A stretch of DNA of 45,249 bases from an uncultured Clostridia bacterium (lineage in GTDB: Bacteria; Bacillota; Clostridia; Christensenellales; Borkfalkiaceae): NCBI GenBank assembly GCA_944372515.1, contig CALVZM010000065.1, positions 1-45,249 of the forward strand, given 5' to 3'. Of this stretch, positions 18,459 to 29,556 are shown one piece after another (the stretch's first letter is position 1; each line of letters starts with the position of its first letter). The translations under genes and the position numbers were made by a program. The notes beneath the pieces are model-generated. The model did no database searches. It was not told the origin of the DNA and was given only the letters and a program-made list of their open reading frames with translations.

Positions 18459-19403
18459 TTACCGCTCCGCGCGCATCGGATTGTGCAGGAAATCGGCATA
18501 GGTCATGCGGATGCCCTCTTCAAGTTCCGTGCTGTATTTCCAGCCGAGTTTTTCCAATTTGGAGACGTCGAGCAGTTTCCGCGGCGTGCCGTCGGGCTTG
18601 GTGTCGTCCCATTCGATCTTTCCTTTATACCCCACGACCTTCGCCACCAATTCGGCGAGCGCGCGGATGGAGAGTTCCTTGCCCGTCCCCACGTTGACCG
18701 TTTCCGTGCCGCTGTATGTGTTCATGAGGAACACGCAGGCATCGGCAAGGTCGTCGACGTATAAAAATTCTCGCATGGGCGCACCCGTGCCCCAGCAGAC
18801 CACCTTTTCATCCCCGCGCTCCTTCGCCTCGTGAAAGCGGCGGATGAACGCCGGCAGGACGTGCGAATGCTCGGGATGGTAATTATCGTTCTTTCCGTAC
18901 AGATTGGTCGGCATGACCGAAATATAATCGGCGCCGTACTGCCTGTCCAGGTATTCGCAGTATTTGAGCCCGGAAATTTTGGCGAGGGCATATCCCTCGT
19001 TGGTCTGTTCGAGCGCGCCCGTCAACAGACAATTTTCGGGCATGGGTTGGGGCGCCATACGCGGATAGATGCAGGAAGAGCCCAAAAACATCAGTTTTTT
19101 AACGCCGTTTTCCCACGCCGCACGGATGGCATTCATTTCCAAAATCATGTTGTCATAGAGAAAGTCCGCGGGCTGCTTCGCGTTGCCCAGGATCCCGCCG
19201 ACCTTGGCGGCTGCCAGAAAGACGTATTCCGGCTTTTCTTCGGCAAAAAATGCCCGCGTCGCCGCCTGATCGCGCAGGTCGAGTTCCCGGCTCGAACGCA
19301 GGATCAGGTTTTGATACCCCTTCTCCTGCAATTTCCGCACGATGGCGGAACCCACCATGCCGCGATGCCCCGCGACGTAAATTTTTGCGTCCTTTTCCAT
19401 CAT
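18459..19403 (-). CDS. fcl: GDP-L-fucose synthase
   Basis: A 314-residue short-chain dehydrogenase/reductase family epimerase-reductase that turns GDP-4-keto-6-deoxy-D-mannose into GDP-L-fucose with NADPH. It shows the nucleotide loop [10 protein letters not shown], the LGSSCIYPR segment and the YALAK catalytic Tyr-Lys pair. [20 protein letters not shown] is diagnostic for Fcl/WcaG, and the length is normal. The start overlaps the gmd stop (ATGA at 19400-19403), so the last two steps of GDP-fucose synthesis are translationally coupled. A second ATG directly follows the first. Confidence 0.95.
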
Positions 19404-20455
19404 AAGCCCTTTTTCTCCTTCTCGGCAAGCGCTCTGTCGTGCTCCGCCATCCGCCGCACGAGTTCTTCATAAGACGTCTTTTGCGGATCCCAGCCGAGTT
19501 TGGTCTTTGCTTTGGTCGGATCGCCCAGAAGGTTGTCCACATCCGTCGGGCGGAAAAAGGCGGGCGACACGTCGACAAGCACCCTGCCCGTCGCACGGTC
19601 AATGCCCTTTTCGTCCGCACCATGCCCGCGCCATTCGAGTTCTATGCCGTTATAGCGGAAGGCAAGTTCCGTAAATTCCCTCACGGTGTGCTGCACGCCC
19701 GTGGCAATGACGTAATCTTCCGGCTCGTCCTGTTGCAGGATGAGCCACATGCACTCCACATAATCCTTTGCGTACCCCCAATCCCGCAGGGAATCGAGGT
19801 TGCCGAGGGACAACTTGTCCTGCAAGCCGCAGGCGATCCGCCCGGCGGCGAGGGTGATCTTCCTCGTTACGAAGGTCTCGCCGCGGCGCTCGGATTCATG
19901 ATTGAACAGAATGCCGCTGCAACAGAACATGCCGTATGCCTCGCGGTATTCCTTGACGATCCAGAACCCGTATTGCTTGGCGACGGCATAGGGAGAATAG
20001 GGATGGAAGGGCGTCTTTTCGCTCTGCGGGATCTCCTCCACTTTTCCGTACAATTCGGACGTGGACGCCTGATAGATGCGGCAGGTCTTTGCAAGCCCGC
20101 ACACGCGCACGGCTTCGAGCACGCGCAAAACGCCCGTCGCCACCACGTCGGCGGTGTATTCGGGCACTTCAAAACTGACCTGCACATGGCTCTGCGCCGC
20201 CAGATTGTAGATCTCGTCCGGGCGCACGGCGGCAATGATGCCGACCAGGGAGAGGGAATCCCCCAGATCGCCGTAGTGCAGATGGAAATTTTCCCTGCCT
20301 TCCAGATGGGCGATGCGCTCGTGATGATCCACCGAAGAACGGCGGATGACCCCGTGCACGTCATAGCCCTTTTCCAATAAAAATTCGGCGAGATAGGAAC
20401 CGTCCTGTCCCGTTACGCCCGTGATCAAAGCCGTCTTTGCCGTCCTGGTCGCCAT
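19400..20455 (-). CDS. gmd: GDP-mannose 4,6-dehydratase
   Basis: A 351-residue extended SDR enzyme converting GDP-D-mannose to GDP-4-keto-6-deoxy-D-mannose. The diagnostic segments are [20 protein letters not shown], the RRSS NADP-binding stretch, [13 protein letters not shown], and the YSPYAVAK catalytic Tyr-Lys pair with the threonine in [26 protein letters not shown] near the middle is also characteristic. It supplies Fcl. About 140 bases separate it from the fusion gene upstream; they contain a small hairpin (20554-20570) and no recognised promoter. Confidence 0.95.
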
Positions 20456-20595: not shown

Positions 20596-22857
20596 TCAGA
20601 GCGTTACCGCGATCAGCGAGATCCTGCCGCTGCCGCGGAAAACATATTTATGCGCGACGCCGAAGAAGGTTTCGCCGCGGCGGAAGGTCTTGACGCTGAC
20701 GCCGTCGCCCGCGACGACCTTGCCCTTGCCTTCCAGCACCACGAAGGCGCAGAAAGAACTGTAATCGACCGTGATAGAGATCTCTCCCTTGGCTTCATAT
20801 TTGGACGCCGAGAAATATTTGCAGTCGCCGAGCAACGTCCGCGTACCGTTGCCGTAGGGCTCCGAACGGTCCCGCTGCACGAATTCCCGCAGGGAGGATT
20901 TGTAATTGAGCACGTCAAGCGCCTTTTCGATGTGCAGTTCGCGCGGTTCCCCGCGGTCGTTTTTCCGGTCGTAATCATACAGACGGTAGGTAACGTTGGA
21001 ACTCTGCTGTATCTCGCAGATAATGCACCCGGCGCCGATGGCGTGTACCATGCCCGTATGCAGGAAATATGTCTGCCCCGCTTTGACGGGGATCTTCTGC
21101 AAGATCTCTTCCAGCGTTCCGTCCTGCGTGCGGCGCAGCACTTCGCTGCGGGTTACGTTGCGGTTGAAGCCCGCATAGATGTAGGCGCCCGGCTTGGCGT
21201 CCACGACATACCAAAGTTCGTTCTTGCCGTATTCGTTTTCATGCGGGAAGGCATATTCGTCGCTCGGATGCACCTGAATGGACAGACTGCGGTGCGCGTC
21301 GATGAACTTGATGAGCAGGGGAAACTCCGAAAACGCCTGGCATTTCCAGCCGAGTTTATCCTTGCCGATGATCTCGATGAACTGTTTTAAGGTCTTGCCT
21401 GCATATTTCCCGTCGTCCACGACGCTTTCGCCGCCGGGATGGGTGGAAAGTTCCCAACTTTCGCCGACGTGTTTTTTGCCGTATAATTTTTTCCCGAGCG
21501 CCTTGGAAAGATTGACGCCCCCCCAGATGCACTCCCGCAGCGCGGGACGCAGACGCACGAGCACTTCTTCCATGCTCCGCACGCCGTCGTCGGCGGCGAT
21601 CCCCTTGCCGAGGACGGTCTCGATGAGCGTGAGATTGATCTCCCTGCGGTTCTCCACGCGGTGTTTGCCGCCGATGGGGACATAGACGCTTTGGTTGAGG
21701 AAGGTCTCCTTTTCCACGCCGTTGACCGAGATGACCGCCGTGCCCGTTACCACCGAAAACGTGGCGGAATGCTGCGTGTGCGCGTGCGTGGGGATCTCCT
21801 TGTGCGGGTAGACGAGCACTTTGTTGACCTTATAGCCGCCCGTCTGGTAGAGGGTCTGCCGCATGCCCCAATTGTAATAGGCGATGTCGCAGCGGTCGAA
21901 AATGGCAGGATTTTTTCCGTAATTGAGCGAAGTGATCTGCTTGATGTCCGCCACGCTCTCTTTTTTGGAAATATAGAGCGCGTCGCGGGTGTTGACAACG
22001 ATCAGGTCCTCCACGTTGTTGAGCACGACCGCCTTCTCCTCTTCGGTATTGACCACGTCGGTGTTGCGGCAGAGCACTTTGAGTAAAAAGGAATCCTGTT
22101 CCCGCTTCCCCTTGTAATCACTGAATGTCTTCAAATCGACGATGCGGTGGAAACGGAAGTGCGCCCGCACGAGCGTCGCACAGTCGGGACGCAGCACTTG
22201 TCCGAGCGCCAACGAGGGCATGCCCGCGGAGACCTCCCGCGTGATGACGCCGCCGAACGACTCCATGCGGCGACGGCAGCGCGTCAGATAGCGGTCGTCC
22301 ATCGCGTCCAGAAGCACCTTCGCGCGCCCCGCGACGATGCCGCAGTCCCATACATAATATCCCGATTCCGGTTTGACCGAAGAAAAACCCGTAACCTCTT
22401 TCCCTTTGTAGGAAATAAAACTGTACCCCTCCCACTTGTTCATCGCCGCCGCGCCGACGACGCCCACGCGCCCCTGCGCGACGATGCGCTTCAAGTCCAT
22501 GACGGTCGCATTGTAATCGCCGTCCAAAATGGCGTCCGTGGAGACGATGAGGATCTCCTCTTCGGGTCGGCAGCGGAGCAGCGCCAAAGCGACGGGGAAC
22601 GCCGTTTTGACCGACTCCTCTTCAAAGAGGAAGGAACAGTTGAGCCGCTGGAAGGCGCGGAGTTGACCGCGCAGGATGTTCTCATGCCGGCGGTTCGCCA
22701 GGATCACATACTCGTCGCTGAAAGGAATGTTGCGCAGGATGGTCTCCTGGAACATCGAGCGGTGATCGCGTATTTCCATAAATTGTTTTGGATAGTTCTT
22801 GCGGGAAAGCGGCCACAGCCGGTCGCTGTTTCCTCCCGCGAGCACGAAACATTTCAT
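20596..22857 (-). CDS. Fusion of ManC-like, cupin and class I mannose-6-phosphate isomerase domains
   Basis: A 753-residue protein with three parts. Residues about 1-330 are a mannose-1-phosphate guanylyltransferase-like domain, but the nucleotide loop reads GGNSDRLWPLSR (residues 8-19) rather than the usual GGxGTRLWPLSR. About 330-430 is the cupin found at the end of ManC/AlgA proteins (PTHAHTQHSATFSVVTGTA). About 430-753 is a class I, ManA-type isomerase (CIWGGVNL, GESWELSTHPGGES, LSIQVHPSDEYA, ENEYGKNELWYV) with the zinc ligands expected in QVHPSD and HAIGAG. The isomerase part should make mannose-6-phosphate from fructose-6-phosphate. A canonical manC follows the same promoter (24804-25964), so the N-terminal domain may be inactive or regulatory. 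GAGAAGA precedes the ATG. Confidence 0.85.
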   Translation of the reverse strand: MKCFVLAGGNSDRLWPLSRKNYPKQFMEIRDHRSMFQETILRNIPFSDEYVILANRRHENILRGQLRAFQRLNCSFLFEEESVKTAFPVALALLRCRPEEEILIVSTDAILDGDYNATVMDLKRIVAQGRVGVVGAAAMNKWEGYSFISYKGKEVTGFSSVKPESGYYVWDCGIVAGRAKVLLDAMDDRYLTRCRRRMESFGGVITREVSAGMPSLALGQVLRPDCATLVRAHFRFHRIVDLKTFSDYKGKREQDSFLLKVLCRNTDVVNTEEEKAVVLNNVEDLIVVNTRDALYISKKESVADIKQITSLNYGKNPAIFDRCDIAYYNWGMRQTLYQTGGYKVNKVLVYPHKEIPTHAHTQHSATFSVVTGTAVISVNGVEKETFLNQSVYVPIGGKHRVENRREINLTLIETVLGKGIAADDGVRSMEEVLVRLRPALRECIWGGVNLSKALGKKLYGKKHVGESWELSTHPGGESVVDDGKYAGKTLKQFIEIIGKDKLGWKCQAFSEFPLLIKFIDAHRSLSIQVHPSDEYAFPHENEYGKNELWYVVDAKPGAYIYAGFNRNVTRSEVLRRTQDGTLEEILQKIPVKAGQTYFLHTGMVHAIGAGCIICEIQQSSNVTYRLYDYDRKNDRGEPRELHIEKALDVLNYKSSLREFVQRDRSEPYGNGTRTLLGDCKYFSASKYEAKGEISITVDYSSFCAFVVLEGKGKVVAGDGVSVKTFRRGETFFGVAHKYVFRGSGRISLIAVTL

Positions 22858-22994: not shown

Positions 22995-24800
22995 TCAATC
23001 CCCCTCGGGCGCGTTCCCTTCCCCTTGCGCCTCTCCGCGCGCAAGGCGCAGCAGATCGGCGCGCATACTTTCGACCGCCGCGTCCGCCTCCCGTTCGTCG
23101 GCGCCCTTTGCACCGAAATAAAACTTGATCTTCGGCTCGGTGCCCGACGGACGCACGCAGCACCAGGCTCCCTTTTCGCACTCGAAATAGACGACGTTGC
23201 TTGCGGGCAAGGCAAGCGGCGTTTCCGCCCCCGTGGCAAGATCCCGCCGCACACCCGCGGCATAGTCCCGCACGGCGACGACCTTTGCCCCGCCGATGCA
23301 CGCGGGGGGCGACGACGAAAGACGCTGCGTGAGCGCCTGCGCGCCGCCGTCAAAGCCGTCTTCGAGGAGCACGCTTTCGAGCCCTTCCCGATAATAGCCG
23401 TATTTTTGATAGATGCGGCGCATCTGTTCGCAGAGGGTGATGCCCTGCTTTTTGTAATACGCCGCCGCTTCGCACAGCGCCGCCACCGCCGCAACGGCGT
23501 CCTTGTCCCGCGCGTATGTACCGATCAAACATCCGTAACTCTCTTCAAACCCGAAGAGAAATTCATAGGCGCCCTTTGTCCCGTCCGCCTTGCCGCCGTT
23601 CTTTTCTTTGGCTTCTTCAAACAGACGGATCTGTTCGCCGATGTATTTGAATCCCGTCAGAACTTCCCGCAGGGTGATCCCGTAAGCCGCCGCCATCTCC
23701 TTTGCCATGTCGGAAGAGACGATGGTCGTTACCATTGCGCCGTCGGACGCGGGCATGGGCAGTCTGTTCTTCTCTTTCAATTGCGAGAGGCGGTATTCCG
23801 CGATGAGCAGTCCGGACATGTTGCCCGTGAAGGACATATATTCCCCCGTGAGGGAATCCTTTGCAAAGACGCCCAGCCTGTCCGCGTCGGGATCGGTAGC
23901 AAGAACGATGTCCGCATCCCGCTTTCTCGCCAACTTCAACGCGAGCGAGAACGCCTTCGGATCCTCGGGATTGGGATATTCCACCGTGGAAAAATTGCCG
24001 TCGGGCAATTCCTGTTCGGGCACGACCCAGACCTGCGAAAAGCCCAGGTCGCGCAAGATCCGCCGCACGGGAATGTTGCCCGTGCCGTGCAGCGGGGTAT
24101 AGACGATGCGTATGTCCTTTGCCATCTCCCGTATGACTTCCGGATTGAGCGCGGTGCGGCGGATGGCGGCATAATATTCCTCATCCGTTTCCCTGCCGAT
24201 CATCTGCAAAAGCCCCGCCGCCAGGGCGTCCTCGCGGGACATCTTACGGACGGACGAAAAACTCGTCAGCGCGTTGACGCGGCGGATGATGGCGGCGTCC
24301 TGCGGCGGCACGATCTGTCCGCCGTCCTGCCAATATACTTTATAGCCGTTGTAAGCGGGGGGATTGTGGCTCGCCGTAACGACCACGCCCGCAATGCAGC
24401 CGAGCCGGCGCACCGCAAAGGAAAGTTCGGGCGTGGGGCGCAGGCTGTCAAAAAGGAAGGTCTTTATGCCGTTGGCACAGAACACGAGCGCGGCGCATTC
24501 GGCAAAATCAAAGGAATAACGGCGGCTGTCATAGGCGATGACGACCTGCTTTTCCCCTTTGCCCGCAACGGCGTTGATGTAGTCCGCCAATCCCTGCGTG
24601 GCTTTGCCGACGGTGTAGACGTTCATGCGGTTGGTGCCAGCGCCGATGAGTCCGCGCATTCCGCCCGTGCCGAAGGAAAGAGATCTGCCGAAACGGTCTT
24701 CGATCTCCCTCTCGTCGGTCAGTGCGCGCGCTTCCCGCCGCGTCTCTTCGTCAAATGTGGCAGAAATGCACCACCTTTGATGTTCCGCCCGATAATCCAT
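22995..24800 (-). CDS. Alpha-phosphohexomutase (phosphomannomutase/phosphoglucomutase)
   Basis: A 601-residue four-domain mutase of the PgcA-like group. It carries FGTGGMRG at the N-terminus, the phosphoserine loop TASHNPP (near residue 142), the metal loop DPDADR (near 302), and the phosphate-binding RPSGTEPK near 550. It interconverts hexose 6- and 1-phosphates. In this operon it most likely makes mannose-1-phosphate from mannose-6-phosphate, with glucose phosphates as a second substrate. The longer length, compared with about 450 for ManB/AlgC, is normal for the PgcA type. It starts 4 bases from the manC stop, with GGGAG upstream inside manC. Confidence 0.9.
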   Translation of the reverse strand: MDYRAEHQRWCISATFDEETRREARALTDEREIEDRFGRSLSFGTGGMRGLIGAGTNRMNVYTVGKATQGLADYINAVAGKGEKQVVIAYDSRRYSFDFAECAALVFCANGIKTFLFDSLRPTPELSFAVRRLGCIAGVVVTASHNPPAYNGYKVYWQDGGQIVPPQDAAIIRRVNALTSFSSVRKMSREDALAAGLLQMIGRETDEEYYAAIRRTALNPEVIREMAKDIRIVYTPLHGTGNIPVRRILRDLGFSQVWVVPEQELPDGNFSTVEYPNPEDPKAFSLALKLARKRDADIVLATDPDADRLGVFAKDSLTGEYMSFTGNMSGLLIAEYRLSQLKEKNRLPMPASDGAMVTTIVSSDMAKEMAAAYGITLREVLTGFKYIGEQIRLFEEAKEKNGGKADGTKGAYEFLFGFEESYGCLIGTYARDKDAVAAVAALCEAAAYYKKQGITLCEQMRRIYQKYGYYREGLESVLLEDGFDGGAQALTQRLSSSPPACIGGAKVVAVRDYAAGVRRDLATGAETPLALPASNVVYFECEKGAWCCVRPSGTEPKIKFYFGAKGADEREADAAVESMRADLLRLARGEAQGEGNAPEGD

Positions 24801-24803
24801 AAC

Positions 24804-25964
24804 TCACAACGCTCCCTTTTTTCCCGATTTCCTGAGATATTCCACCAACTTTTTCACATCCTGCGCGCGGTCTTTGGGGCATACCATGACCGCATCTTCC
24901 GTCTCCACGGCGATGATGTCCTTCATGCCGAACGCCGCCAGGAGCCTGTCCGAAGAGAAGAACACGCAGTTCTCGCAATCGGGCGCCGCCACGTCTCCGA
25001 CGAGCACGTTGCCCTGCGCATCTTTCCCGTAAACCGCGTCGAGCGCGTCCCAACTGCCGATGTCGCTCCAACCGAACGACCCCTTGACGGTCAGCGTGTC
25101 CGTCGTTCTCTCCATGATGCCGTAATCGACGGAGATGTTGCGCAGCGACGGATACACCTCCGCCGTTACCTTCTCTTCGTCGGGCGTGCCGAGCGCCGCC
25201 GCTATTTTTTCCAGCCCCGCGCGGATGTCGGGCAGGTATTGCCCGATCTTTTCCAGCACGAGGGAAATTTTCCAGACGAAAATACCGCAGTTCCAGAGAT
25301 ATTTCCCGCTCTCGAAATATTGCTCCGCGTCGGCTTCGCAGGGCTTTTCGGTAAAGCGGATGACTTTGCGCGCCGCCCCCAGCCGATCGCCGTAACGGAT
25401 GTATCCGTAACCCGTGGCGGCATACGTCGGCTGCACGCCGACGGTAACGGGACAATCGTACTTCTCCGCCGCTTCCGCCGCCGCCGAGAGGGTCTGCAAA
25501 TAGGCATCGGTGTCCCGGACATAGGCGTCGGACGGCGTAACGATCATGATGCCGTCGCCAAAGAGACGGCGCAGCCTGATCGCCGCATAACCGATGCAGG
25601 CAGCCGTCCCGCGCGCCGCCGGCTCAAAAAACACGTTGTCGGAGGGAATTTTTCCCGCCGTTGCCTGCAAGATCTGCGCCCTTTGCTGCGCGCTGGTAAC
25701 GACAAAAAGATTGCGTCCGCCCGTCAGGGCAGCCAATCTGTCCGCCGTTTCGTTGACCAGACAGTCCTTCCCCGTCAGGTTCAACAATTGTTTCGGTTTT
25801 TTCGCCCTGGAAAGGGGCCAGAAGCGCGTTCCGCCGCCGCCCGCCAGGATCACTGCGTATCTGTCCATTGCCGTTTGCGCCTTTTGCACTGCCGCATCCC
25901 GCGCGCCGCGATTTTTTCCGCCGCGGAAACGGAGAGCGTCCTTCATCCGCCCTTCTTTCGGCAT
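24804..25964 (-). CDS. manC: Mannose-1-phosphate guanylyltransferase
   Basis: A 386-residue nucleotidyltransferase making GDP-mannose from GTP and mannose-1-phosphate. The canonical loop ILAGGGGTRFWPLSR and the downstream FTEKP catalytic motif, with GKYLWNCGIFVW, are intact, unlike in the fusion protein at 20596-22857. There is no cupin isomerase tail. The frame starts at 25964 with a near-perfect AAGGA site, 21 bases from the promoter -10. This adds about 32 residues before the family's usual beginning (MDRYAVILAGG at 25868). The longer form is reported because of the ribosome binding site; the internal ATG remains possible. It is the first gene of the polysaccharide operon. Confidence 0.9.
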   Translation of the reverse strand: MPKEGRMKDALRFRGGKNRGARDAAVQKAQTAMDRYAVILAGGGGTRFWPLSRAKKPKQLLNLTGKDCLVNETADRLAALTGGRNLFVVTSAQQRAQILQATAGKIPSDNVFFEPAARGTAACIGYAAIRLRRLFGDGIMIVTPSDAYVRDTDAYLQTLSAAAEAAEKYDCPVTVGVQPTYAATGYGYIRYGDRLGAARKVIRFTEKPCEADAEQYFESGKYLWNCGIFVWKISLVLEKIGQYLPDIRAGLEKIAAALGTPDEEKVTAEVYPSLRNISVDYGIMERTTDTLTVKGSFGWSDIGSWDALDAVYGKDAQGNVLVGDVAAPDCENCVFFSSDRLLAAFGMKDIIAVETEDAVMVCPKDRAQDVKKLVEYLRKSGKKGAL

Positions 25965-25984
25965 GATATAATCCTTCTTATTTT

Positions 25985-26013
25985 ATCATACATCATTTTG
26001 CCCTTTCTGTCAA
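25985..26013 (-). promoter_or_regulatory. Promoter of the polysaccharide operon
   Basis: On the minus strand TTGACA (26008-26013) and TATGAT (25985-25990) are 17 bp apart. The leader before the manC ATG would be under 20 bases, with AAGGA correctly spaced. This is the only strong promoter seen for the 14 genes down to 8171. Confidence 0.8.
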
Positions 26014-26059
26014 GGAACTGATCCGTTTTTTAGCCTTTTCTCCCCGTTTATTTTTCTTC

Positions 26060-26171: not shown

Positions 26172-26217
26172 ATTCTGCTTGCGGCGGAAATCTTTTTGCC
26201 CGACGGAACGAAAAGCA

Positions 26218-26253
26218 AAAGAGGCGGATGCCGCAAAGCATCCGCCCCTCTTT
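26218..26253. terminator. Terminator downstream of the GH3 gene
   Basis: A 26218-26231 / 26238-26253 hairpin (GAGGCGGATGC with GCATCCGCCCCTC, one bulge) is flanked by A and T runs. It ends the leftward GH3 transcript. Confidence 0.75.
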
Positions 26254-26285
26254 GTCATATCACATTGTTTTTCGCTTTGAAAACG

Positions 26286-29200
26286 TCATGCCGTCTGTTC
26301 GCCCGAAGCGGCGGGCGCCGCCTTCTTGGGTTTGAGAAGGAAGAACGTCCAGACGCCGAAGCCTGCCACTACCAAGACGTCAAAGGTGATCAGAACGGGG
26401 ATCCACCAGGGGAAGACCGCCTCTTTCACCTGCGCGGAGAACCTGGAAGCGTTCCAGGTGTCGACCAGGGTGTAGAGGATGTTGTGCGCGGCTTTGCGCG
26501 CGCAGTAGATGTCTTCCGCATTGTTCTTGTTCAGCGGTCCGCCGATGCTGTCGTTGGGGTTGAGCCACAGGTCGTTGCCGGCGCGGATGCCCTGACGGGT
26601 GTACATGCCGCCCTCGCTGTCGCCGCTCGTCCAGTCGGTGATGACCGAACCTTCAAAGCCCCATTCTTCGCGCAGGATCTCGGTCAGGAGCGCATAATTT
26701 GCCCCCGCCCAGGTCGCGCCGATGCGGTTGAACGCCGACATTACGGCATTCGCGTCGCCTTCCTTGACGGCGATCTCGAAGGGTTTGAGATAATTTTCGC
26801 GCAGATTCTGCTCGGTGAGCCAGGTATTCCAATTCCTTGCGTTCGGACCGGATTCGCTGCAAGCAAAGTGCTTGATGTAACAATACAGCCCGTTGTCCCT
26901 GGCGCCCTTGATGAGGGGCGCCGCCAATTTGCCGCTCAGAACGCCGTCCTCGGAATAATATTCATAGTTGCGGGAGGTATAGTTCGTGCGGTGCAGGTTG
27001 ACGCCGGGGGCATACCAGCCGTTCAGGTTGGAATCCTGCGCCTCCTGTCCCATCAGTTCGCCCATGGTGTAGAGCAGTTCTTTGTCCCACGTACAGCCGA
27101 TGAGCGATTCGCTGGGATACGCCGTCCACATGGCGGCATCGACGGAGCCGCCGAAGTCGCCCGTGCGGGAGTTGGTGTTGAATCCTGCGGGGCCGTCATA
27201 ATCGTTGAAATAGGGCTTGCCGATGGATTCGATCGCCTCGGTGCGGAATCCGCCGCATTCGACCAGGATAGTCAGTTCGCCGACGGTCATCTGATCGAGG
27301 AGATAATCCCAATCGGGGGAATCGTAGTCGGCAAGGTCTTCCATCAGTTCCTCGTCAAAGGCAAAAAACTGTCCTTCTTCCAGCGATTCCTCCCCTCTCA
27401 ACTGCGCGAGCGTGGCGTCGGCATAGGCATATTTGGGATTGCCGTCGTCGTCCGTACCGCGCTCGATCGCGATCTGGGTGAGGCGCATGCCCGCCTCGAT
27501 GCCCGTCGCGGGCATCTGCACAACCTTGCCGCCGTTTTCATCGACGACCGGCTGATAATATTTCGCGGCACTGTCGATCTTCGCGCCGTCGGTGGGCAGC
27601 CCTGCCTTGTCGGAGGGGAAACTGCCCGAGAAGTTTGCACGGGAGAGATAGTTCTGATCCATGCCCACGGTGCTGCCGTCGACGGGCACGCCCGCATAGG
27701 CGCCCGCGCCGGTGAATCTCGTTTCGACCGCCGTGCCGGTAACGGGGTCTTCGGCATAGATCACGTCCGCGGGGAGTTCATAGGAAATTTCGGCATGCTC
27801 CACGGCGCCGCTTTGATTGACCTTGACGGTATGCGCGTCGGTGCGCAGGCTGATCGTATAGGTGCCCGCGTCCAATTCATAGGCGTACTTCTGATTGTCG
27901 TTATCGTCGTAAGCGTCGAAGGAAGCCATGTCATAGGGCGTGAAGGAGAGGGTTACCTGCTCTTCGCCGCCCGCGGGCAGCAACCCGGTCTTGGCGAAAT
28001 CCAGCAGGTTGACGGCGGATTTTTCGATCTCGCCTTTGTTGTATTGCGGGGTATAATAGAGTTGCACGACGTCCTGCCCGGGATAGTCGCCCGTGTTGGT
28101 AACTTTGACCGTAACGGTGATCTCCTCGTTCTTATTGGCGTCGGTGATCTGCCCGGAAGTGAAATCGGCATCGGCTTCGCCTGCGGTTACCGAGACCACT
28201 TCCCAATCGAACGTCGTATAGGAAAGCCCGAACCCGAACGGGAACTGCACGACGTCTTTATAGCCGTTTCGGATGCCGAACGTCGTTTCGGCATAGGTGC
28301 TGTTCCAGAACCCTTCCGCATCGGCGGTCTCATACCATTTGTATCCGAAATAGATGTCTTCGGCGTACTGAATGTTCGTGCCGACGGTGCCGCCCGCCGA
28401 AGAAGATTCCGCGTTGACGAAACTCGGATCGGCGGCGGGGACATAGGTATATGTGTCGGTAACCTTTCCGGACGGACTGAATTTTTCTTCCGTCTCCTGC
28501 CCGTCCTCGTCCTTCACGGTGCGGACGCCTTTGAGGGCTTCCACGACGCCGAACGCGCCCGACTGACCCGTCAGACCGATGTACATGGCGGCGTCCACGT
28601 TCTCGTCTTCCAGGAACCCGCAGTGCATGGTGTTGGAAGTGTTCAGAAGGACGATGACTTTGCCGAATCTTTCGGTAACTTCATCGAGCAGCGCCTGTTC
28701 GGCGTCCGTGATTTCCAGATAGGTCTTGTCCGCGTTGACAGAACCCTTGTTCTGCGTCTTGGGCTGTTCGCCGATGTTTTCGCCGCCCAGACGGCTGAAC
28801 ACGACGACGGCAATGTCCGAATAGTCATGCGCCGCGGCAAACTGCTCGTCCGTGATCTCCGGCTCGTCCAGCCAATAAGCGTTGTGATCGCTGTTGCCGG
28901 AAAAATAACGCCCGACGTCATAAGCGTCGTAGATCGCTTCCAGAGCGGGGTTATACTCGATGTCGTTTTCGGTCAGCGCATCCTGCAAGGTTACCATCTT
29001 GTCGTCGGCGATCGTGGAAGAGCCGCTGCCGATGCCCTTCATCAGGAAGCCGTCGAAATCGGCGGCGCTCGACGGGTCATAGGCGCTGAACCCGAAGAGG
29101 TTGACCTTGTTTTCGTCCTCTTCGAGGGGCAGGGCGGGTTCCTTGTCCGCATCCGTCTGATTTTTCAGCAAAACGGCGCCCTCTTCGCCCAACTGACGGC

Positions 29201-29375
29201 AGAGATCGTCCCCCGCCTGCAAGGTTTCTTCGCTTGCACCCGTGTCGCCCGTGCCCGCGAGAAACGCCGTGATCGGGTTGGCATAGATGAAGGCAAAGAC
29301 ATTGCCGACCGCCAGCGCGATGACCACGACTGCCATGACAGAGAAGCAAATGATTCTTTTTACCACTTTGTTCAT
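26286..29375 (-). CDS. Membrane-anchored GH3 glycosidase with permuted domain order
   Basis: A 1029-residue protein with the GH3 halves in reversed order. A hydrophobic N-terminal segment (about 8-30) is followed by the GH3 C-terminal-type domain (LFGFSAYD, SRLGGENIGEQP, LLNTSNTMHCGFL). A fibronectin-III-like domain (about 430-530, TVKVTNTGDYPGQDVVQLY) comes next. Then comes the catalytic barrel (about 650-960), in which VITDW carries the likely nucleophile D914. A second membrane segment (about 990-1015) and a short basic tail end the protein. It should act outside the cell on beta-linked oligosaccharides (beta-glucosidase or related). This permuted order is known in some clostridial GH3 enzymes. 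AAAGGAG lies 13 bases before the ATG. It is a single-gene unit; the 250 bases upstream have no clear promoter. Substrate unknown. Confidence 0.87.
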   Translation of the reverse strand: MNKVVKRIICFSVMAVVVIALAVGNVFAFIYANPITAFLAGTGDTGASEETLQAGDDLCRQLGEEGAVLLKNQTDADKEPALPLEEDENKVNLFGFSAYDPSSAADFDGFLMKGIGSGSSTIADDKMVTLQDALTENDIEYNPALEAIYDAYDVGRYFSGNSDHNAYWLDEPEITDEQFAAAHDYSDIAVVVFSRLGGENIGEQPKTQNKGSVNADKTYLEITDAEQALLDEVTERFGKVIVLLNTSNTMHCGFLEDENVDAAMYIGLTGQSGAFGVVEALKGVRTVKDEDGQETEEKFSPSGKVTDTYTYVPAADPSFVNAESSSAGGTVGTNIQYAEDIYFGYKWYETADAEGFWNSTYAETTFGIRNGYKDVVQFPFGFGLSYTTFDWEVVSVTAGEADADFTSGQITDANKNEEITVTVKVTNTGDYPGQDVVQLYYTPQYNKGEIEKSAVNLLDFAKTGLLPAGGEEQVTLSFTPYDMASFDAYDDNDNQKYAYELDAGTYTISLRTDAHTVKVNQSGAVEHAEISYELPADVIYAEDPVTGTAVETRFTGAGAYAGVPVDGSTVGMDQNYLSRANFSGSFPSDKAGLPTDGAKIDSAAKYYQPVVDENGGKVVQMPATGIEAGMRLTQIAIERGTDDDGNPKYAYADATLAQLRGEESLEEGQFFAFDEELMEDLADYDSPDWDYLLDQMTVGELTILVECGGFRTEAIESIGKPYFNDYDGPAGFNTNSRTGDFGGSVDAAMWTAYPSESLIGCTWDKELLYTMGELMGQEAQDSNLNGWYAPGVNLHRTNYTSRNYEYYSEDGVLSGKLAAPLIKGARDNGLYCYIKHFACSESGPNARNWNTWLTEQNLRENYLKPFEIAVKEGDANAVMSAFNRIGATWAGANYALLTEILREEWGFEGSVITDWTSGDSEGGMYTRQGIRAGNDLWLNPNDSIGGPLNKNNAEDIYCARKAAHNILYTLVDTWNASRFSAQVKEAVFPWWIPVLITFDVLVVAGFGVWTFFLLKPKKAAPAASGEQTA

Positions 29376-29556
29376 GAGAAATGCAACACTCCTTTCCTAT
29401 AAAATTTTTTACACACGAAAAGGGAGCACCGCTTCCCTTCCCGTGCGTCCGGATCATGCCGTATCCGCCCCCCGCGCGGCAGACCGCTCCGCGGGAGAAC
29501 CGTCTGTATTTTAGCATGTTCCGCCGCCCTTATTTACGGTTTTGTCATAATCCATG

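Follow-up and report, generated by a model that had tools for sequence, protein, structure and literature searches.

A ManC-cupin-ManA fusion protein in a GDP-L-fucose operon of Clostridia, with a probably non-catalytic pyrophosphorylase-like half

The fusion gene and its operon

The window (the whole 45,249-nucleotide stretch of DNA that was analysed, from an uncultured Clostridia bacterium) carries on its minus strand, on which all of its features described below lie unless noted, an open reading frame (20596..22857) which starts with ATG, has no internal stops in translation and encodes a protein of 753 aa. The ORF call, Pfam, NCBIfam and orthologues together define this protein as a fusion of a domain resembling GDP-mannose pyrophosphorylase (GMP), a cupin and a class I phosphomannose isomerase (PMI) of the ManA type. 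The GMP-like domain, a ManC-type nucleotidyltransferase (residues 1-262; 22072..22857), was delimited by Pfam, Foldseek and motif tables; it contains the phosphate-binding signature loop LAGGNSDRLWPLSRKNYPKQFM (residues 6-27; 22777..22842), which falls where conservation along the protein is highest in the window lineage, and F236-R238 (22144..22152), placed by motif alignment at the W-x-D position of active ManC. There follows a beta-helix-like segment (residues 263-312; 21922..22071), recognised by profile alignment to 2x5s and by a sub-threshold Pfam match to ManC_GMP_beta-helix (19.9 bits, cut-off 27), and then a ManC-type cupin (MannoseP_isomer, residues 326-427; 21577..21882) in which metal-site residues are partly lost, as seen from Pfam, motifs and dN/dS. 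A linker of low confidence and poor conservation (residues 421-432; 21562..21597; AlphaFold2 pLDDT 37 at block 421-430, identity 0.27-0.36) leads to the class I PMI (residues 433-753; 20599..21561), which by Pfam, NCBIfam and Foldseek is a ManA and keeps all of the expected catalytic residues.

The three-domain architecture had been claimed by the sequence-only reading and is present, with exact coordinates and on the minus strand, which that reading had not named, Pfam, NCBIfam and Foldseek being in agreement. The Pfam search returned NTP_transferase (4-180), MannoseP_isomer (326-427) and PMI_typeI_cat (from 433). Of the NCBIfam models, the fusion passes manA (TIGR00218; 128.2 bits, or 130.6 in the genome search, cut-off 116.2) and fails GMP_PMI (TIGR01479; 168.5 bits, cut-off 372.95), and when solved structures were searched by sequence, residues 431-740 matched B. 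subtilis ManA and the N-terminus matched bacterial GMPs. Structure prediction with AlphaFold2, based on a 43-sequence alignment, gave a mean pLDDT of 85.3 and a pTM of 0.76; Foldseek matched the ManA half to 1qwr (B. subtilis ManA; E 2e-32, TM 0.87-0.89 by target length) and the GMP-like domain to 2x5s (T. maritima GMP) and 2qh5. A sequencing error that merged two genes near residue 430, against which the earlier reading had itself warned, is ruled out because the same uninterrupted protein occurs in dozens of independent genomes.

Transcription on the minus strand runs in the order manC - phosphohexomutase - fusion - gmd - fcl. The first gene encodes a short ManC (24804..25964) comprised of GMP domain and beta-helix, without a cupin and with canonical motifs (Pfam, motif alignment), and is followed by a phosphohexomutase of the PGM/PMM family (22995..24800; Pfam, NCBIfam); downstream of the fusion are gmd (19400..20455; Pfam) and fcl, encoding a GDP-L-fucose synthase-like epimerase/reductase (18459..19403; Pfam). 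The intact manC that had been described two genes upstream was thus confirmed in the direction of transcription, with the phosphohexomutase between, and the operon is a gene set leading from GDP-mannose to GDP-L-fucose. The fusion is also the sole class I ManA of the window's genome (TIGR00218 genome search; genome 96.6% complete). As the short ManC has no cupin and no other class I ManA was found, the fusion must provide the isomerase of the pathway unless some unrelated enzyme does so. Fusion genes of the window genus and its close relatives stand beside or near manC and the mutase gene; at most Lachnospiraceae fusion loci these two genes were not seen within the fetched flank.

Several variations at such loci were also seen. 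One genome of the same genus (G001, locus L024) keeps the order manC-mutase-gmd-fcl with the fusion absent between mutase and gmd; no class I ManA that could supply mannose-6-phosphate was found in that genome. In another same-genus genome the manC adjoining the fusion is split across two overlapping frames (L028, 2889-4105), reflecting either an assembly frameshift or a broken gene. Within the window, two very long plus-strand ORFs (23025-26021, 998 aa; 26196-29402, 1068 aa) oppose manC/mutase and a glycoside-hydrolase-like gene; they are probably an effect of composition and not genes.

Distribution and relatives of the fusion

A survey of the same domain order, which had been proposed with the original observation, found the intact fusion in more than 40 Clostridia species, with 6/61 genomes positive in a relatives search and 4/243 in an even sample of Clostridia. 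Two of the carriers are cultured, [Clostridium] fimetarium DSM 9179 and Lactobacillus rogosae ATCC 27753. The fusion family is rare, conserved and real, and it is of single origin: the 47 fusion GMP domains tested group as a single clade, separated from 31 other ManC sequences by a branch with SH-aLRT 100. A separate ManC accompanies the fusion in 44 of the 45 fusion-holding genomes, and none was seen in the other (G085), a genome that may be incomplete. Another, non-fused class I ManA scored above the cut-off in only two of the fusion genomes (G091 and G097). In two Lachnospiraceae loci (L067, 7038-9071; L068, 2483-4429) the GMP-like domain is joined straight to ManA without a cupin; both adjoin manC and fcl, and L067 also gmd. 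A distant relative (L047, genome G081) passes the GMP_PMI (TIGR01479) cut-off. An open-access literature search found nothing relevant on a GMP-cupin-ManA three-domain fusion, though reports of one may exist elsewhere.

Type II PMIs are bifunctional GMP/PMI enzymes (PMC3204966). Their domain order, as in ManC, AlgA and WbpW (TIGR01479), is GMP, beta-helix and MannoseP_isomer cupin, which is that of the N-terminal 430 residues of the fusion; the window protein differs in having 3/9 GMP markers, in lacking the cupin Glu and in adding a whole class I ManA, and in its operon the GMP step falls to the separate ManC. Class I PMIs (ManA; B. subtilis 1qwr, TIGR00218), which residues 433-753 match in all catalytic and metal residues, are normally stand-alone proteins of ~320 aa, whereas in the fusion 430 ManC-like residues precede. 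On the Lactococcus plasmid pUCCL626B mutase, canonical ManC-cupin and ManA are three neighbouring genes beside glycosyltransferase genes, and both here and in genome G033 the domains of the fusion occur in the same order as two adjacent genes, manC-cupin and manA. Unlike the fusion, these genes are separate and their GMP motifs are canonical, and the ManC of G033 comes from another clade. Direct descent of the fusion from the adjacent manC-manA pairs of G033 and G017 is unsupported, as their ManC lie outside the fusion clade; the Lactococcus ManC, compared by its motifs, has canonical ones as does the ManC clade of G033 and G017.

Other large proteins containing these domains were encountered. 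Proteins of about 600-650 aa in which a ROK-family kinase domain comes after a class I ManA occur in other genera of the same family (L020, 5855-7729; L023, 4854-6671) and in a more distant Clostridia genome (L083, 2971-4923); the ROK domain was called by Pfam in L020 and L023 and judged by sequence in L083, and ORFs of similar length are present in L021 and L022. Such a protein plausibly combines mannokinase and isomerase for mannose use. A 770-residue frame in genome G128 (L084, 2033-4342) reads as GH1-like beta-glucosidase sequence followed by class I ManA, and G262 has a 770-residue frame with the same kind of match. Bifunctional ManC domains also lie within open frames of 976-1038 aa in genomes G178 and G201 (L078, 1-2430; L079, 1709-4822), possibly as part of another large ManC fusion.

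Residue conservation in the three domains

The eight residues K517, Q528, H530, K545, E547, H605, E615 and R625 of the ManA half, which are its metal-binding and catalytic residues, are invariant in 43 fusions. They presumably correspond to the residues mutated in Salmonella PMI structure entries, going by the entry titles and our own mapping. The C-terminal domain therefore looks like a working class I PMI, judged on its residues, and identity over its catalytic part is 0.72-0.73 in the window lineage (11 sequences).

The N-terminal half is less uniform. The plant GMP VTC1 depends critically on Glu195-Lys196, Asp111 and Asp219; its Asn173 touches mannose, while PPi or citrate is bound by Thr12, Arg13 or Lys23 (PMC9168903); W217/D219 of the same enzyme is the basis for the role given here to the W-x-D site (PMC9168903). 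Motif alignment shows that the window protein keeps the loop Arg (R13), the PKQ Lys (K24) and the first Asp (D108, VTC1 Asp111), with S/V replacing the Glu-Lys pair, R238 at VTC1 Asp219 and an Asp at VTC1 Asn173; of the GMP catalytic residues, the loop Arg and PxD Asp are thus kept and the Glu-Lys pair and WxD Asp lost. The W-x-D metal Asp is Arg or Lys in 11/11 sequences of the window lineage and has changed at least four times within the fusion family. As D108, D171 and D241 are all invariant in the window lineage, with Asp at 171 (N to D) and 241 fixed there and uncommon elsewhere, it is conceivable that they may form an alternative metal site.

Over nine GMP marker positions, canonical ManC has 9/9, one set of Lachnospiraceae fusions 8/9, most Lachnospira-like fusions 5-7/9 and the window lineage 3-5/9, the window protein itself being at the lower end. 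The suggestion that the N-terminal half is a pseudoenzyme therefore stands for the window lineage, where WxD Asp, Glu-Lys pair and cupin ligands are lost and this half is probably non-catalytic, and does not extend to the family as a whole: the loss is lineage-specific, as some Lachnospiraceae fusions keep nearly intact GMP residues. With 8/9 markers retained there, and one family member passing the GMP_PMI cut-off, part of the family may be live pyrophosphorylases. Two other features were not accepted as signs of inactivity. The altered loop GGNSDRLWP, previously read in that way, is not diagnostic since T. maritima GMP has GGSGERFWP, with Glu at the Thr position, and the loop Arg and PKQ Lys are kept. 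Absence of the SxDY Asp, seen in 47/47 fusions, was set aside as proof because eukaryotic GMPPB-type enzymes carry SIEK at this position and its loss is uninformative alone.

In the cupin the motif QxHxHRxEHW reads THAHTQHSATF in the window protein, the cupin Glu being lost and the second-motif His and later Glu retained. Most Lachnospiraceae fusions keep the HxH..R.EHW motif, whereas little or nothing of it is left in the window genus and nearest relatives, where 0-3/9 cupin markers are found. The protein had been said to hold two unrelated isomerase types; two folds are indeed present, but the statement goes too far for the window genus, whose cupin no longer has all of its ligand residues.

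Conservation is unevenly distributed along the fusion. Among the 11 sequences of the window lineage, residues 1-50 have a mean identity of 0.90-0.91, the highest in the protein, and residues 131-262 one of 0.47-0.48. In the control, active-looking ManC from mostly the same genomes, the pattern is reversed: the loop has an identity of 0.73 and the SVDY..GWSDIGSW stretch one of 0.77. Pairwise dN/dS within the genus (NG86), rough ratios because dS is ~1 and near saturation, was 0.08-0.19 for the GMP-like domain, indicating purifying selection, about 0.03-0.1 for the beta-helix segment, 0.12-0.51 for the cupin, which appears relaxed, and 0.04-0.09 for the ManA part.

Possible roles of the N-terminal half

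Within the operon the class I ManA domain would act as the PMI, converting fructose-6-phosphate to mannose-6-phosphate, which the phosphohexomutase and short ManC would take to GDP-mannose, and gmd and fcl would complete the route from GDP-mannose to GDP-fucose. The N-terminal 430 residues would derive from a ManC of the bifunctional kind, with pyrophosphorylase and cupin isomerase, which, in the window lineage, would no longer make GDP-mannose, the Glu-Lys pair being broken, the metal Asp replaced by a basic residue and the cupin eroding. We give an even chance to the reading of the fusion as a PMI joined to a pseudo-pyrophosphorylase that has been repurposed to bind a ligand. This ligand, most likely bound by the N-terminal half without turnover, would be pyrophosphate, a nucleotide sugar or a guanine nucleotide, since the phosphate-binding loop is almost frozen despite the loss of catalytic residues, and a basic residue at the metal-Asp position would suit Mg2+-independent binding. 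The ligand state would be relayed to the isomerase in the same chain or, through pairing, to ManC, the direction and target of any such regulation being speculative. Conservation of the loop could instead reflect a protein interface.

A parallel exists in GMPPA, which is non-catalytic, binds GDP-mannose and inhibits GMPPB (PMC11228364). The human GMPPA/GMPPB pair likewise sets a non-catalytic GMP paralogue beside an active one, and in the window lineage the fusion has lost catalytic residues while an active-looking paralogue coexists; the likeness would be one of working, by hypothesis, and no membership of the GMPPA family is claimed. GMPPA regulates GMPPB as a subunit of its own, whereas the pseudo-GMP of the window shares one polypeptide with the isomerase of the first pathway step and appears to come from the bacterial ManC branch. 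A PDB profile search with the fusion placed bacterial GMPs far above eukaryotic GMPPB/VTC1, with no GMPPA chain among the matches listed. Tentatively, and as something possible rather than probable, the fusion may be a cis-built bacterial counterpart of GMPPA, in which a retired pyrophosphorylase fused to the PMI, its metal Asp changed to Arg/Lys, senses guanine nucleotides or GDP-sugars (possibly GDP-fucose) and so places the first step of the pathway under end-product control. No literature was found on the control of GDP-sugar supply in gut Clostridia through this fusion protein.

Rather unlikely, in our view, is a purely structural role, with no sensing, in which the isomerase would be dimerised through the GMP-like fold and beta-helix, or docked by them on ManC and the mutase so that mannose-6-phosphate is channelled. 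T. maritima GMP and GMPPA/GMPPB dimerise through the beta-helix (PMC9168903), the segment is retained in the fusion at low dN/dS, and the gene stands close to manC and the mutase gene in the window genus and its close relatives; however, the neighbourhood was not recovered within the fetched flank at most Lachnospiraceae loci, and such a role leaves unexplained why the phosphate-binding loop, rather than the beta-helix, is best conserved. Around the pocket three Asp are invariant, two of which arose in the lineage; together with the fixed basic residue 238 they suggest concerted change rather than random decay, and would fit a re-tooled enzyme with a changed but real activity (on another nucleotide or sugar phosphate, or as a hydrolase) through D108, D171 and D241. 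This we regard as doubtful, as the protein lacks the Glu-Lys pair and WxD Asp, conservation of residues 131-262 is poor and the operon has no pathway gap needing another nucleotidyltransferase.

An enzyme that still worked in three ways, as GMP, type II PMI and type I PMI, and offered back-up GMP activity would be in keeping with those Lachnospiraceae fusions that keep 8/9 GMP markers and the cupin HxH..R.EHW, but is very improbable given the marker count and missing cupin Glu of the window protein, the near-universal separate ManC and the two fusions wholly without a cupin. Hardly credible at all is a passive remnant on its way out: the erosion of the cupin, with its few markers and dN/dS of up to 0.51, and its absence from L067 and L068 would agree with this, yet the first 50 residues are the best conserved of the fusion and purifying selection acts on the GMP-like domain.

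For the ligand-binding pseudo-pyrophosphorylase, the fusion family offers a graded series, from a near-intact GMP in some Lachnospiraceae, through partial loss in the relatives of Lachnospira, to the remodelled pocket of the window lineage, with the two genomes without a cupin at its end. Annotation of these proteins calls for caution, as the fusions invite guanylyltransferase or bifunctional PMI labels whilst the likely activity is that of ManA. If the sensor role is true, the family would show how a redundant enzyme can take on built-in control of the pathway to which it belongs.
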